Below are positions 682 to 61,398 of a DNA stretch of 64,000 nt, one piece after another. This DNA comes from Halichondria panicea (Eukaryota > Porifera > Demospongiae > Suberitida > Halichondriidae): NCBI RefSeq assembly GCF_963675165.1, contig NC_087381.1, positions 682,001-746,000 on the forward strand. Direction: 5' to 3'. The position numbers and the translations under genes are program-made. The notes under the pieces were generated by a model, which ran no database searches, was not told where the DNA came from, and saw only the letters and a program-made list of their open reading frames with translations. Position 1 is the stretch's first letter. Each line of letters opens with the position of its first letter.

Positions 682-2514
682 TTGTAGTACAGACCAAGGC
701 CACATCTTGTGTGTGGGTACAATCTTCAACTCCGATAGTGTTAGCAGGACACTCAATGAGTGCTCTCTCAGTTCCTGAGCAACGAAGCTCATCCAGCCAT
801 GTCCGACTGGAATTTGAAGACTGGGGGAAACTATTAAATGTAGGAAGTGATTATCCTAATCTTAGATCCCACTTGTGTGTGTTTAACAGGGAATTATGAG
901 CCATAATCTCATTCGGTATCTATGGTTATAGTGTCCCTCATCCCTCGGGCAAAGCCCTCGTGATATGGGACACTAGATACCTCATGCCCATGTACTATCT
1001 ATAACATAATAAAATTGGAAGAATACTATATAAATATGGATTCATGCATGCACCGGGCTAGAGTATAATTATCATAAAAGTGTACACTCACCCTAATGTT
1101 CCTACTCTTCCAAACTTAGTATAGTCTTCGTACCCCAGCTGACGACAAGCCACTCTTGCATCGTTTGGACTGAAGCTGTCATCACACACTGTTCCCCATT
1201 GATCATCATGAAACAAATCCAGTCTACCAGCGGATGGTATCCCACTGGTAGTAGCATTCACTAGTCTCAAAACTCCATCTAAATTAAGATATGAATTATA
1301 TATACACCTACTGAAAGTGTATAACATCACTCACTTATTGCACACACTAATCCCACATCGTCAGAACGGTCACAGTTATGATCTCCAATAGGATTTCGTG
1401 GGCAGTTTTCAAGTCTACTTTCGGAACCATTGCAGCGAAGGCCGTCCAACCATATCGGAGTGGATGCTGACACTATTAGGGCACTGTATACATGTGAAGA
1501 GTGGAATAATTTGGATTAATAATAGCATATACGCAAGCAAATCTATTGGTATATACTTACTTTCGTACAACCCCATAGGCTACGTAACCTTGGAAAACCA
1601 ACTGACGACAAGCCACAAGTGCACCGGTTGAACCAAATCCGTCCTGACACACTGTCCCCCATTGTCCATTGTAATATATCTCCAATCTACCACTTCTGCC
1701 TCCTGTTGAACCAGACGAATCTACCAGCCTCACATCTCCACTCAATTGCCCTGCATGCATGCATGCACGAAATGAACAACAACACTATCTTCAGATAAAA
1801 TTCAATATTAGTAAGCAAGCCGTCACTCACATAATCCTGGCTACTATATACTCCCTGATGAAATCTTGTTTGTACTAACTTCTTTATACTTTCAGTGTTG
1901 GCTCAATATAATCTTCATTATCACAGCTATTATAATAATAGTAGTCCTTGTGTATAATTATATCAACAATAATTATATTAGGTCAACGTCAATTCATTCA
2001 ATATACATGCAGTAGATCTGGCTCTCTGAAGTATTAATTGCCACTTCGATACCGGCCATTTGGTTTAGTATGAAATGCTAGTGTTTACTGCACAAATCTC
2101 TCCGAAATGCAGCCATGCAATATTGAAGCACCATGGCAGAGTGTTCGCTGTATTAGAACAACGAAAATTTCCCAGAAAAGTAAAAGTGCCCGATAAATTA
2201 GAAGATATACAGTACTATAATACTTAAATGTGCTTGTTTTATTGATACTGTCTTGTAGTAAGTACACAGCAAAAACACTTATGAGATGCATTGCATGTTG
2301 AGGACAGAGATATATACTATAATTTATATACTTCGAAGGAAACTTAATTCTTCAAAACTGTATGGTGCATTGTGTTGTTGTAGGCAGAAGAATTAACTGT
2401 AATATCGACCTGAAGTATATCTAGATCTATAAAATTAACATGCATGAGCTCACCTCCAGCAGCCCAAACCAGGCTCAGGACAGTGACTGACTTCCACAGC
2501 AAAAAATTCATCAT
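682..2514 (-). CDS. SRCR gene A, N-terminal part (3' end outside window)
   Basis: Predicted type I membrane or secreted SRCR receptor; only the 5' part is in the window. Exons in coding order (high to low): signal 2454-2514, SRCR1 1561-1750 and 1335-1483, SRCR2 1092-1278 and 682-830. The first exon starts at tandem ATGs (2514, 2511) and encodes a hydrophobic leader ([17 protein letters not shown]) ending in phase 1. SRCR1 shows [22 protein letters not shown] and VACRQL. The second halves show WLD.LRC and the closing VGLVC or ALVC. Each domain keeps the six group A cysteines. The last donor (after 682) reads GTGCGT instead of the family's GTAAG, so that boundary is less certain. More SRCR modules and the membrane exon should lie left of the window. 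Ligand unknown. Confidence 0.85.
1751..2453. other. Intron 1 of gene A with DNA transposon fragment
   Basis: Between the signal exon and the first SRCR exon. About 2022-2100 matches the segment near 30935-31020 (GGCTCTCTGAAGTA, CGATACCGGCCATTTGG). It is a decayed terminal piece of a DNA transposon, possibly pogo/Tc1-like. Nothing else recognised. Confidence 0.4.
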
Positions 2515-2892
2515 TGGTAATGCTTCTTGCAATTCAGTATGGAGGTCACAGTTATGGATCTAATTGTGGAATTTATTTGTTTATAGTGCACGTGACTGAC
2601 TGTGCATATTTTAATCTTACAGGATTGACAGATCAAGTTGTTATTAATAACACATCCAATCCAATATGCCAGGTTTCTCTAAACCAAAAATCGACATTGA
2701 TGGCCTATTACACAATTTATCAGGGCCTACAACCACTCCAATATGTGAAAATAATGCGGGGAAAGACAATCATGCAGTATAGATCTATATCCATAATAAT
2801 TATTATGTCATACATTATTATATTGTTATTGTTGAATGCAAAGCGCTGAGCTATATAGAGGGCTTCTCAAATTATTATTATGCTGTACCATT

Positions 2893-3090
2893 ATAGCGTG
2901 TAATTTTCGTGGGTTAAAACATTTACGTGGGAAAGCTGACCTCGATGAACATTTTCCCACAAAAATCTAGGCGTGGTTCACCAGAACACATGCAGTACAG
3001 TTCAACTGTTACTCACAAAAACTATAATCACTATAATGTTCAACTTCAACACATTTTTTACCCCATGAAAATTACCCGCTATAACGGTAT
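2893..3090. mobile_element. CGGGTAATTTTC-type MITE between genes A and B
   Basis: Left end TAGCGTGTAATTTTCGTGGG and right end CCCCATGAAAATTACCCGCT are inverted copies of each other, about 200 bp apart, with no coding capacity. The same termini occur near 11407, 21863 and 45554. It lies in the presumed 5' flank of gene A and downstream of gene B; the rest of 2515-3351 shows no gene. Confidence 0.6.
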
Positions 3091-58528: not shown

Positions 58529-59055
58529 CACATTGGCTATGTTTATGCAGCTACCCTCAGTACAGGTATACAATACTTCTAGTAAAGGTTCTAGCTATAA
58601 ACGAGCTATAAAAGTAGTGAGTACAATTAAAGTCATAATAATACAGACAGCAGAGTACATATAAAAGCAAGTCATGGGATTTACAGTTATTGCGCATGCG
58701 CATTCAATAATTGGTAAACGAGGGGAGGGGTTCAACAGCATTAGCCTCGATTCCAGGCCGCAAGAAAAGGGAAGGGGCTGGAGTCTAGGATACTTTTCAA
58801 AATCTGTGTTGCCTTGGGGCCATAATTTGTCATATAATTTTTTCTGCCTTGGAATTCGACCGAAGTTGGCTTCCATCTGATCGAACATTGATGAAAGTTC
58901 GCTTTCAGAAATTAAATACACGGATTTCTAGCTATGTCAGCTGAAAAATAGTCCCCGAACTATTGATTAATTTATAAGTCTCAACTTTGCTTCAATTATA
59001 TTATCACAATAGACAAAAAGATATACACAATAAGCTAAAAACAAAACAGTAAATA
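57590..59055. repeat. Intron 1 and upstream DNA of gene J, source or partner of the gene I copy
   Basis: Partner of 51890-53631. It spans the signal exon of J and reaches the 3' end of gene K, whose last exon starts at 59074. Apart from these exons no gene is seen. Confidence 0.7.
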
Positions 59056-59073
59056 ATTTTTCTGGGTGTCTAG

Positions 59074-61398
59074 CTAGTACAACTCTTCGTAGCGATTCTT
59101 CTTAGAGCGACACTTGTAGCAGCATCTTGTAATGGACACCATGAGCACTACAACACATCCCACCATAAACACCGCAGCTAGGCCCAATATCACACCAAAC
59201 AGTACTATCAACAGCGGAAACTCTGCATGTATACGGAGAAAACACATGCATGTACAGCTCATTAACATGATACTGCATTGAGTGTACAATTAATTGTAAC
59301 GCTTACTGTTGATTGCACAGTTGCTCTTGTATCCAGCAGAATACTCTTCGGCTTCACTTAAGTCAAATTCTGTACATATGCACACACACACACACACAGA
59401 GAAATTAAACTACATACAAGACTAAGGCTGAGTAGCTGTCAGTGTGTATAGACTTACGGCATTGAATGGCCACATCCATCGTGTGGTTACAGTCATGGAT
59501 GAGGACGTGAGGTTGGAAGCAATCGGTGAAACATGACTGAGAGGAATCACAAGTGAGGTCCTTCACGTGAATAGCTCCACTACCAGGGCTATACAGTAAT
59601 TATAGTGAGCCGTTAGGAATTAAGGTATACTATCAATTAATTAATGGATACTATATATGCACACAGCATGATAGTAATAATTACTATGCCCAGAAATGTC
59701 TGTTTACTTGTTTTAAAAGACTAGCTATAAAGCATATACCACTTAAAACAAGAAAATGGTATGTGTATACTAGCTATTATGTACACTGAGTGAACTCACA
59801 ATGCACTTCCAGTGAACACAGCCCCTGTGTAGCCCAGTTGTCGACACACAGAGTCAGCCCCCTCCTGACTGAAACCTTTGTTACAGACTGTACCCCACTG
59901 GCCATTCTGGTAGACCTCTACACGCCCGTACGAATGTATGGTGGTGTTCGTTAAAGAGTTCATCAGGCGAACTTGCCCCTGATAAGGAGCCTCCCAAATA
60001 TTCTCAACACCTGCAGGAAAGTTAAATAGGATATCTGCACCCAATTCATTTAATTTCCATGCACGGATGGTGGTTGTACATATATATATATAGAATGGCT
60101 AATTGCAATCCCGACACATAATTATGTATGCATGCTGATTGCATGCATAGTAATGAGCTATAATTTATAAAAGCATATCTATATAAAGACGCTTGTGCAC
60201 AATATCTTACTGCAAAACACTGCCACATCTTGCCGATGACTGCAGTCCTCGTCTAAGTTTCCGTAATCGACATCACAACGCATAAAATGCCAGAAATAAG
60301 AAGCTGAACACGATATGTCACTCACAGCTATAGGCATACTGTCATTTGCAGAACCATACCTATTGCAACATGTGTGTGAAATTATAAATGGAGACATTCC
60401 TCATGGCAAAATTAATGGGCACTTTAAAATAGATCACATGCAGCACAATGTATACATGCAGTCAAGATCAACTACATGGTAAATAGATGTTACATTCTGT
60501 ATAGCACTATTTCAAAGTTGAATGCTACCTGATGGCAACTGCTGTATTTTACAATCTGCAAACAAGCCAAACAGTAAAGCACAAAACGTACGGTGTATAG
60601 ATCGTGTAATTCCAGCCGGTAGCATATTTGAACCCCATCTGTCGACAAGCCACGTTAGCAGCTGCGAGTGAGAACTCATCACCACACACTGTCCCCCATG
60701 AACCCTCGGACTCAACCTCACCACTGCCATCAGACATGTAATTACTGCCAAGGTACATCTGCATGTGTGTGCCGGTGTGATGGGGAGATGTTATATATTA
60801 TGAGTTTTGGCTGGTTGTAGATTTGCATCCGCTATATTAAATAGAGAGTTGAGACTCAGAGAGTCTACATGTACTGTGGTACTGCATTATCTTAATAAAA
60901 GCACAATGAAAATCTTGCTATGAAGTGTCGGAATTTTACAACGTGCAGAGTTTAGCTATACACAGAATAACTACTGTAGTATATAGATTTAATATATACA
61001 TGCAAGTTTATAATATAATACACATGTCTCACCTCCAATCGTCCTGCACCTGTACCAACCACTTCATCATTCACCATTAATCGGAGGTCTCCTTTGGACC
61101 ATAAAATGTGTGGCTCTATCAGTGATTGTGTCCAGTCATCCGCAAACAAGAACTCGTCATCCGTATTAAGTCCGTCCTCTGAACAAAACAAATATGTACG
61201 TATATGGAAGCTAACATGATATGATACTTTTTTTGCTACAAATGCTGTATAATAAACTCTTTATAGTGCTTATAGCAATTTACCTGATGTCTGCCCATCT
61301 TTGTATAGCTGATAGCCATCTTGTTGCGGGCTTGCATCAACTCTAGTCTGTAGCAACACATATACCAGTGTGGCAATAACTTTCCATTGACTTTGCAT
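59074..61398 (-). CDS. SRCR gene K: divergent two-SRCR membrane protein with short tail
   Basis: Predicted 376 aa. Exons in coding order: 61284-61398 (leader WKVIATLVYVLLQTRVDA), 61033-61178, 60592-60758, 60211-60359, 59800-60010, 59458-59588, 59307-59369, 59074-59222; 1131 nt, in frame, ATG at 61398. SRCR1 spans three exons (LRLM...GAGRLE, then GSWGTVCGDEF/VACRQMGF, then DISCS...EDCSHRQDVAVFC). SRCR2 spans two ([32 protein letters not shown]...DCNHTMDVAIQC) with an unusual Cys arrangement. A stalk exon, then a membrane helix about aa 329-358 and a basic tail TRCCYKCRSKKNRYEELY. The CC and C residues near the membrane could be acylated, and YEEL fits a YxxL-type sorting motif; both are inference. 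It lacks the Pro/Tyr tail, and its introns are arranged differently from A-J, so it is an older relative. Confidence 0.85.

Follow-up and report, generated by a model that had tools for sequence, protein, structure and literature searches.

An array of SRCR-domain genes with variable domain number and PPxY motifs at the end of most tails in the sponge Halichondria panicea

Sponges have no antibodies for recognising microbes or one another, but possess hundreds of SRCR genes; a run of such genes in Halichondria panicea raises the question of what a set of receptors that share a leader and related tails, but vary in the number of ectodomains, might recognise and how binding might be passed on. 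The window analysed here is the whole stretch of 64,000 nucleotides from contig NC_087381.1, positions 682,001 to 746,000 (coordinates on this contig are marked C5; a window position equals the C5 coordinate minus 682000). The initial annotation described eleven adjacent same-strand SRCR genes, and a search for exon pairs with profile HMMs built from the window (matches reaching E 1.5e-41) recovered all of them on the minus strand with the domain counts originally given: two in A, which runs off the left edge, eight in B, two in C, six in D, two in E, one in F, four in G, one (broken) in H, three each in I and J, and two diverged ones in K. The outer limits also hold, 682 being the end of an exon of A and 61398 the Met of K, taken from its open reading frame. 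The genes and their parts are as follows (window positions).

682..2514, minus strand: gene A (G9); leader 2454-2514, SRCR exon pairs 1561-1750/1335-1483 and 1092-1278/682-830, the rest lying left of the window
3352..12276, minus strand: gene B (G8); leader 12216-12276 and eight SRCR exon pairs, from 9869 down to 4264
3352-3902, minus strand: tail of gene B; acceptor uncertain, PSAY in place of the C-terminal PPxY
4246..9898, minus strand: internal four-domain duplication of gene B; 4246-6717 against 7343-9898, 90.6% identity over 2583 columns
13203..17253, minus strand: gene C (G7); leader, two SRCR domains, tail 13203-13738 ending in EAPPAYPE
17712..30145, minus strand: gene D (G6); leader, six SRCR domains, tail 17712-18205 ending in PLQHI, without PPxY
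32307..34344, minus strand: gene E (G5); leader, two SRCR domains, tail 32307-32695 ending in NPQHI, without PPxY
35148..39330, minus strand: gene F (G4); leader, one SRCR domain, tail 35148-35617 with C-terminal PPAY
40338..46010, minus strand: gene G (G3); leader, four SRCR domains, tail 40338-40801 with C-terminal PPAY
47028..48754, minus strand: gene H (G2); leader, one SRCR domain whose frame is broken, and a tail that has PPAY at the C-terminus
49372..53005, minus strand: gene I (G1); leader, three SRCR domains, tail with C-terminal PPAY
54246..58531, minus strand: gene J (G0); leader, three SRCR domains, tail 54246-54814 with C-terminal PPAY at 54246-54266
59074..61398, minus strand: gene K; a diverged SRCR gene that has a leader of its own and two SRCR domains with weak matches

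Examination of the surrounding sequence indicates that the window covers the rightmost third of a single array, whose 32 related units all lie on the same strand (C5:554,687-740,531), ten of which (A-J, all on the minus strand) lie inside it. As read from the gene models, A-J have the layout leader-(SRCR)n-TM-tail, with leaders detected for all ten and homologous tail exons for B-J within the window, as had been claimed; gene A, initially credited with at least two domains, has four once it is read past the window edge, the two further domains and the tail being located at C5:680,301-681,947. Across the array, the number of SRCR domains per unit spans 0 to 8 (G17 is the unit without any), and the reading frames are intact in 24 of the 32 units, broken in 7 and undecided in 1. 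The leaders are indeed shared, the description "near-identical" being slightly strong for a mean pairwise nucleotide distance of 0.11, computed over the 29 of 32 leaders in the array that span the whole profile. Gene K has a short TM tail that ends in RYEELY and lacks Pro/Tyr repeats; it is a separate SRCR gene outside the unit set of the array.

Because the window also supplied the HMMs, domain identity was tested independently with Pfam PF00530 and with PDB matches of the domain consensus. Matches to PF00530 above the curated cut-off were obtained in the array (with 150 of 1,364 candidates scored, the counts are lower bounds), and the typed consensus gave matches with E no higher than 0.001 to 26 different PDB sequences, including CD163, CD6, MARCO, MSR1, and DMBT1. 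Exactly six cysteines are present in 76 of the 79 open domains (7, 7 and 5 in the exceptions); the array domains belong to the SRCR superfamily, group A (six conserved cysteines). Group A domains are generally encoded by more than one exon, and the gene models agree with this rule: all 86 modelled exon pairs, one pair per domain, are predicted to be symmetric, with a phase-2 join and phase-1 outer ends. This combination of six cysteines and two exons per domain does not fit the "group C" of sponge SRCR domains, which has seven conserved cysteines according to PMC10855680. The cation-site Asp residues are conserved: at the positions of D1020 and D1058, named as cation-site residues of SALSA in PMC7043408, Asp is found in 72 of 74 domains each. 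The position of E1086 is more variable, with 40 of the 74 domains carrying Glu and 26 carrying Gln (the 74 are the 86 minus 7 that are not open and minus G13 d1, G13 d2, G29 d1, G11 d1, and G23 d2).

A leader, a hydrophobic segment and an Arg-rich stop-transfer can be read from the sequence (hydropathy was run on a few stretches), and the array products are apparent type I membrane receptors. The gene models listed, which take in the array up to a part of G11-G16, contain no collagen repeat and combine an N-terminal leader, SRCR repeats and a C-terminal TM segment, unlike class A scavenger receptors, which have a type II topology with a collagenous stem. In the tails, PPxY is positioned six residues from the C-terminus (-6) in 20 of 31 cases; the 11 others comprise one with the motif at -12, that of gene B with an internal motif only, and nine with none. 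Among the 27 tails longer than 100 aa, to which the motif statistics refer (four of the 31 have 100 aa or less), PPxY falls within the last 12 residues in 21 and occurs once in the tail body, compared to 13.2 occurrences in shuffles. The whole-tail count is 22 versus 14.7 (sd 3.5) in shuffles, with repeats that are not independent, so the PPxY signal is one of position more than of number. The last 11 codons of 15 genes chosen for having PPxY yielded a pN/pS of 0.57 (bootstrap 0.30-1.34), and silent sites are conserved there too, so this value does not prove selection on the motif; the transmembrane and juxtamembrane part evolves loosely (pN/pS 0.84; the tail and TM test excludes the 8 of 32 broken or undecided units and G16, a near-copy). 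All 27 tails over 100 aa lack both ITAM and ITIM motifs. By sequence, PPxY in a presumed cytosolic tail is a WW-ligand motif, and in three regions of the genome matches to WW and HECT domains are grouped on the same strand (C7:173-177k, C7:5.497-5.502M, and C17:5.298-5.302M). PMC5892558 describes strong activation of WW-HECT ligases by PY motifs that are clustered or tethered to a membrane.

Comparison of the SRCR domains, of the dN/dS type proposed in the initial annotation, points to two selection regimes. The domains of A, B, G12, and G27 have a pN/pS of 0.40 and no fast codons; those of the remaining genes have a pN/pS of 0.76 (0.63-0.91; 46 domains, both G16 domains being additionally excluded, gave 22 path-disjoint pairs, which were chosen in order of tree path length and raw distance), and 9 of 109 codons exceed the neutral expectation at q<0.05. 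The claim of a diversifying family is thus supported for most genes but not for these four; both overall values are below 1. Four of the nine fast codons (columns 38, 40, 43, and 116, that is, D1019, S1021, T1024, and G1083 in SALSA numbering) coincide with the known cation/ligand site of SRCR domains or adjoin it; the other five (columns 10, 27, 69, 81, and 124) are not at this site. Domain number does not define the two regimes because D, with six domains, and G, with four, fall in the faster set. Two other approaches were dropped: close pairs picked by low dS gave many dN/dS values above 1, yet this criterion itself selects for low dS; and introns were rejected as a neutral yardstick because their divergence ranges from 3% to more than 50% among domain pairs with similar exons.

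The sequence identities indicate recent duplication of blocks of one, three, and four domains and of one whole gene: units G15 and G16 are 97.8% identical over 3.4 kb, G27 carries a duplicated three-domain block (93.9% identity), and G23 a one-domain shift (91.7%), in addition to the four-domain block in B. Together with the 7 broken units of 32, these support the birth-and-death evolution originally proposed. The domains are also mosaic. In the faster set (46 domains), the distances in exon 1 and exon 2, with the border at alignment column 74, correlate with rho 0.152, compared to a mean of 0.475 for random splits, 0 of 100 being as low; for the A, B, G12, and G27 set (26 domains), rho is 0.787 against 0.922. 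A lower correlation than for random halves is likewise seen between contiguous halves of a single exon (0.268 vs 0.425 and 0.210 vs 0.386), so the mosaicism is not specific to the exon border, and regional differences in selection could contribute to it. Mosaic domains weaken tree-based tests.

Several known systems resemble the array in part. The Hydractinia Alr complex is also a tandem family of variable type I receptors, with Ig-like ectodomains and ITAM/ITIM-type tails, whereas the array has SRCR domains and lacks ITAM/ITIM. DMBT1 and CD163 have multi-domain ectodomains, as in the array, and MARCO has a collagen stem; we know of no vertebrate SRCR receptor with a C-terminal PPxY repeat tail. 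In the Nedd4-family adaptors TMEM127, alpha-arrestins, and Ndfip, PY motifs act on WW-HECT ligases; the array resembles them in this motif, with one PPxY per chain, C-terminal in most chains, and to our knowledge the adaptors have no diversified extracellular recognition domain. DMBT1/SALSA, CD163, CD6, and MARCO share SRCR sequence with the array, along with cation-site residues as described for SALSA (PMC7043408); DMBT1 and CD6 are group B (PMC10855680), unlike the group A array. Closer to the locus, PMC10855680 describes tandem SRCR genes of Amphimedon queenslandica with a signal peptide, TM segment and variable domain number, among them a cluster of six genes with 2, 2, 2, 2, 4, and 6 domains. 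The same paper gives duplication units of one and two domains (here, blocks of 1, 3, and 4), clusters of 2-7 genes, with nine in two subclusters on the richest scaffold (here, 32 units), mostly three exons per domain and a prominent seven-cysteine "group C" (here, two exons and six cysteines); this comparison covers domains, exons and gene numbers, and the PPxY tail of the array stands outside it. Sea urchin SRCR arrays are likewise large and tandem (up to 16 genes), with variable domain number, but the one examined has single-exon domains, one gene deviating, against two exons per domain here, the comparison covering gene number, domain number and exons (PMC10855680). Hence, of the initial suggestion that a domain-count series with Pro/Tyr tails was unreported, the part on the series does not stand, because sponge clusters of tandem SRCR genes carrying 2 to 6 domains have been published before; what the present array adds is its scale, its tail, and the split in regime. 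Our search found no literature joining SRCR and PPxY, and SRCR receptors with a Pro/Tyr PPxY tail may not have been described before. Altogether, the array has the look of a rapidly evolving family of recognition receptors; the type is known in sponges, but this example is larger and has an unusual tail.

The reading that we favour, at about even odds (roughly 0.5) when taken as a whole, is that of recognition receptors that, once clustered, would present PPxY tails to WW-HECT ubiquitin ligases. Under this scenario, the SRCR domains would bind microbial or other polyanionic surfaces via the cation site, domain number would set valency, and diversification of residues around that site in most genes would change specificity. 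Receptors brought together by ligand would gather their C-terminal PPxY motifs into clusters that recruit and activate WW-HECT (Nedd4-type) ubiquitin ligases, and these would in turn drive signalling, sorting or internalisation; such output would be altered or missing in copies that lack PPxY and in G17, which has no domain. In favour of this reading are the array layout, the six cysteines, the cation-site Asp, the fast codons around that site, the placement of PPxY, the absence of ITAM and ITIM from the tails over 100 aa, the WW and HECT matches, the TATA-like boxes ahead of many leaders and the microbial responses of SRCR genes in other sponges; counting against it are the 11 tails without PPxY at -6, the five fast codons outside the cation site, the variation at E1086, the conserved silent sites near the motif, the loosely evolving TM part and the mosaic domains. 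An immune function of the array, as initially proposed, would be in line with these features. Alternatively, the products could be allorecognition (self/non-self) or cell-adhesion receptors, serving as polymorphic partners when sponges meet or cells aggregate instead of binding microbes: a cluster of multi-domain receptors that duplicate fast and diversify their ectodomains suits allorecognition as well as immune loci, and the Geodia literature presents sponge SRCR proteins as aggregation receptors. Nevertheless, ITAM and ITIM motifs, which Hydractinia Alr receptors carry in their tails, are absent from 27 of 27 tails here. Moreover, SRCR genes in other sponges respond to microbial stimuli (PMC6208332), and the sequence at hand comes from a single assembly; we deem this alternative unlikely.

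Conservation of the A, B, G12, and G27 domains (pN/pS 0.40) would also suit general endocytic scavenger or feeding receptors that take up food bacteria and debris with little specificity, with PPxY only controlling turnover, and the motif fits constitutive ubiquitin-driven turnover; in the other genes, however, nine domain codons diversify, which suggests that specificity matters, and such a role strikes us as improbable. Much of the locus could, finally, reflect mostly neutral turnover, with domain counts made by duplication and gene conversion and the high nonsynonymous rate due to relaxed constraint. The 7 broken units, the overall pN/pS below 1, the mosaic domains (rho 0.152 vs 0.475), the uneven intron divergence at similar exons and the loose TM/juxtamembrane part are all compatible with this, but the 24 intact frames of 32, the six cysteines in 76 of 79 open domains, the cation-site Asp in 72 of 74, the PPxY position held in 20 of 31 tails and the nine codons above neutral expectation make it very unlikely as the main explanation. 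The favoured reading can be extended to a germline non-self repertoire, in which an ectodomain valency of 1-8 domains would be coupled to ubiquitin signalling via one C-terminal PPxY in most chains, replacing ITAM/ITIM logic, most genes would diversify specificity, partly by shuffling domain pieces between genes, and A, B, G12, and G27 would form a conserved common set; this full version appears rather unlikely. On the favoured reading itself, 32 units with one shared start, related tails, variable domain number, diversification close to the ligand site and a C-terminal PPxY would amount to a concrete wiring, valency in and ubiquitin ligase out, and the natural series of 0, 1, 2, 3, 4, 6, and 8 domains on related tails would make the conversion of avidity to signal measurable.

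The leaders extend beyond the array: among 57 leader-like matches in the genome (the weakest at E 0.05), 32 are in the array and 25 elsewhere. The genome also has silicatein-like exons, as would be expected of a demosponge. For leaders without a tail match, a search for another tail type found none by eye in three C12 stretches and one candidate TM exon near C5:2.3678M. A TATA-like box is present 40-160 bp upstream of 38% of the leaders, compared to 6% at random places.

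The SRCR gene cluster described in the initial annotation was confirmed. HMMs built from the window recovered all the SRCR exons noted there, every one on the minus strand, and leader and tail searches returned the same ten leaders (genes A–J) and nine tails (B–J). In spliced models, the number of domains is 4 in A (two of these outside the window), 8 in B, 2 in C, 6 in D, 2 in E, 1 in F, 4 in G, 1 (broken) in H, 3 in I, and 3 in J, matching the earlier counts. Gene K is an SRCR gene different from A–J; beyond it, a Ser/Pro-rich open frame of 206 codons lies on the plus strand (window 62935-63555).

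A genome-wide leader search produced 57 matches, of which 32 fall within C5:556,982-740,531 (C5 is the contig containing the window, at C5:682001-746000) and the other 25 are on C1, C5 elsewhere, C7, C12, and C17. The extent of the array was read from an HMM scan of the window and the 129 kb to its left; its units are denoted G0–G31, with J–A corresponding to G0–G9. The 32 leaders are all on a single strand and, exceptions apart, each unit has its own exons and tail ahead of the next leader. The exceptions are G13, where no tail was found by HMM and a distant Pro/Tyr tail ending APPPYAEIFTTPLPQ takes its place; G17, with zero SRCR domains; and G19 and G23, where the tail is followed by a stray match to exon 2. 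The array encompasses 86 exon pairs: 3,3,1,4,1,2,6,2,8,4,2,3,8,2,1,2 in G0–G15 and 2,0,1,3,1,3,1,4,1,2,2,6,3,1,2,2 in G16–G31, where the values for G11 and G13 are lower bounds. The automatic run yielded intact models for 22 of the 32 units, or 24 once the stray exon of G19 is omitted and a nearer acceptor is used in G31; seven units are broken (H, G11, G14, G21, G22, G23, and G29), and G13 was counted as neither. Further details of individual genes are:

C5:630703-632339, G17: 163-residue open frame with leader, TM, and PPxY tail
C5:558390-560349, G30: alternative tail, short, lacking the Pro/Tyr part and ending QDACSPTSVN
C5:589740-592106, G26: the same short tail as G30, ending QDACSPTSVN, without the Pro/Tyr part
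window 59074-61398, gene K: divergent SRCR gene, short tail ending RYEELY

Each SRCR domain consists of two exons with a phase 2 junction and phase 1 at both outer ends; in stop-free models, all 152 donors are GT, and AG is present at 151 of the 152 acceptors. Self-comparison revealed duplication of a 4-domain block in gene B (90.6% identity, 2,583 columns) and of a 3-domain block in G27 (93.9%, 1,522 columns), a 1-domain shift in G23 (91.7%, 1,797 columns), and a whole-gene duplicate, G15/G16 (97.8%, 3,423 columns). Several features favour the units being separate genes: a median of 1,060 bp separates a tail stop from the next leader, 38% of leaders have a TATA-like box 40-160 bp upstream (vs 6% of random places), and 48% of tail stops are followed by AATAAA within 400 bp (vs 22%). 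These fall short of proof because duplicated flanks have such motifs in common by descent.

Tandem clusters of SRCR genes that vary in domain number have already been published for both Amphimedon and sea urchin: Amphimedon has clusters of 2-7 genes, one of six with 2,2,2,2,4,6 domains, its domains mostly of three exons each, and a seven-Cys type, and in sea urchin the arrays reach 16 genes (PMC10855680). In other sponges, SRCR genes react to microbial stimuli (PMC6208332), and Halichondria has individual patterns of receptor expression (PMC8242945). Searching one open-licence library, we found no description of a 32-unit array whose members have the same leader and related tails, of a C-terminal PPxY in an SRCR array, or of a split between diversifying and conserved SRCR domains within one. 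The receptor array is real and large, ordinary in kind and unusually clear, and offers a testable signalling idea.

The domains evolve under two regimes that follow domain type, not length, given that D (6 domains) and G (4) belong to the faster set. On path-disjoint tip pairs, this set (46 domains outside A, B, G12, and G27; 22 pairs) has pN/pS of 0.76 (bootstrap 0.63-0.91), with the neutral expectation exceeded (q<0.05) at 9 of 109 codons; for A, B, G12, and G27 (26 domains, 12 pairs), pN/pS is 0.40 (0.31-0.48), and the same test detected no such codon. All-pairs values are 0.53 (0.36-0.70) for leaders (22 genes) and 0.84 (0.78-0.89) for the transmembrane and juxtamembrane part (23 genes). 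By our own motif-based mapping onto the cation sites of SALSA/DMBT1 SRCR8 (PMC7043408), one of the nine fast codons is D1019 itself and three more occupy the positions of S1021, T1024, and G1083; D1020 and D1058 are each Asp in 72 of 74 domains. Several points weigh against this picture: the other five fast codons lie elsewhere; the E1086 position has Glu in 40 of the 74 domains and Gln in 26; in the faster set, distances from exon 1 correlate poorly with those from exon 2 (rho 0.152 vs 0.475 in random splits), and the per-codon tests may therefore be distorted by recombination or conversion; and introns disagree with exons in divergence, in both directions. The first two domains of gene D (window 24465-27961) differ by 3.3% in the intra-domain intron and 17.4% in exons (dN 0.213, dS 0.151), as if introns were converted or exons accelerated.

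Motifs were counted in the 27 of 31 HMM-found tails longer than 100 aa. These contain no ITIM or ITAM; YxxPhi is rarer than in shuffles (5 vs 26.8), and PPxxY is frequent in the tail body (56), where PPxY occurs once (13.2 in shuffles). PPxY lies within the last 12 residues in 21 of the 27 tails. Over whole tails, its count is 22 vs 14.7 (sd 3.5) in shuffles, which are only a guide because tail repeats are not independent; the signal, therefore, is position. Among all 31 tails, PPxY is exactly 6 residues from the end in 20, 12 from the end in G31, solely internal in B, and absent from nine; D and E end in QHI and have lost the motif, as have some copies outside the array. Outside the array, C1, C12, and C17 carry nine tail matches at eight places (one C12 tail matches in two frames); at five of the eight places, the tail has an in-frame end with PPxY at -6. 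Exactly one lysine is present in 18 of the 27 predicted cytoplasmic tails, possibly a single ubiquitin acceptor.

WW and HECT matches adjoin at three places in the genome, as expected in any animal. WW-HECT ligases are activated by clustered membrane PY motifs (PMC5892558), and we propose this mechanism for the array tails: the PPxY motifs of clustered receptors would activate a WW-HECT ligase, the motif-to-ligase step being inferred for this sponge.

Four-domain gene copies are dispersed at C1 1.19-2.39 Mb and C17 3.89-3.98 Mb. Among the three of seven C1 leaders and two of four C17 places compared, long matches show two C1 copies 95.6-98.6% identical to a third, the two C17 copies 92.6-96.8% identical to each other, and ~77% identity between the contigs. 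One C1 copy is in the opposite orientation. At C5 2.31-2.44 Mb, the same leader and SRCR domains occur with no match to the array tail; they may be followed, near C5:2.3678M, by a TM exon of another kind.
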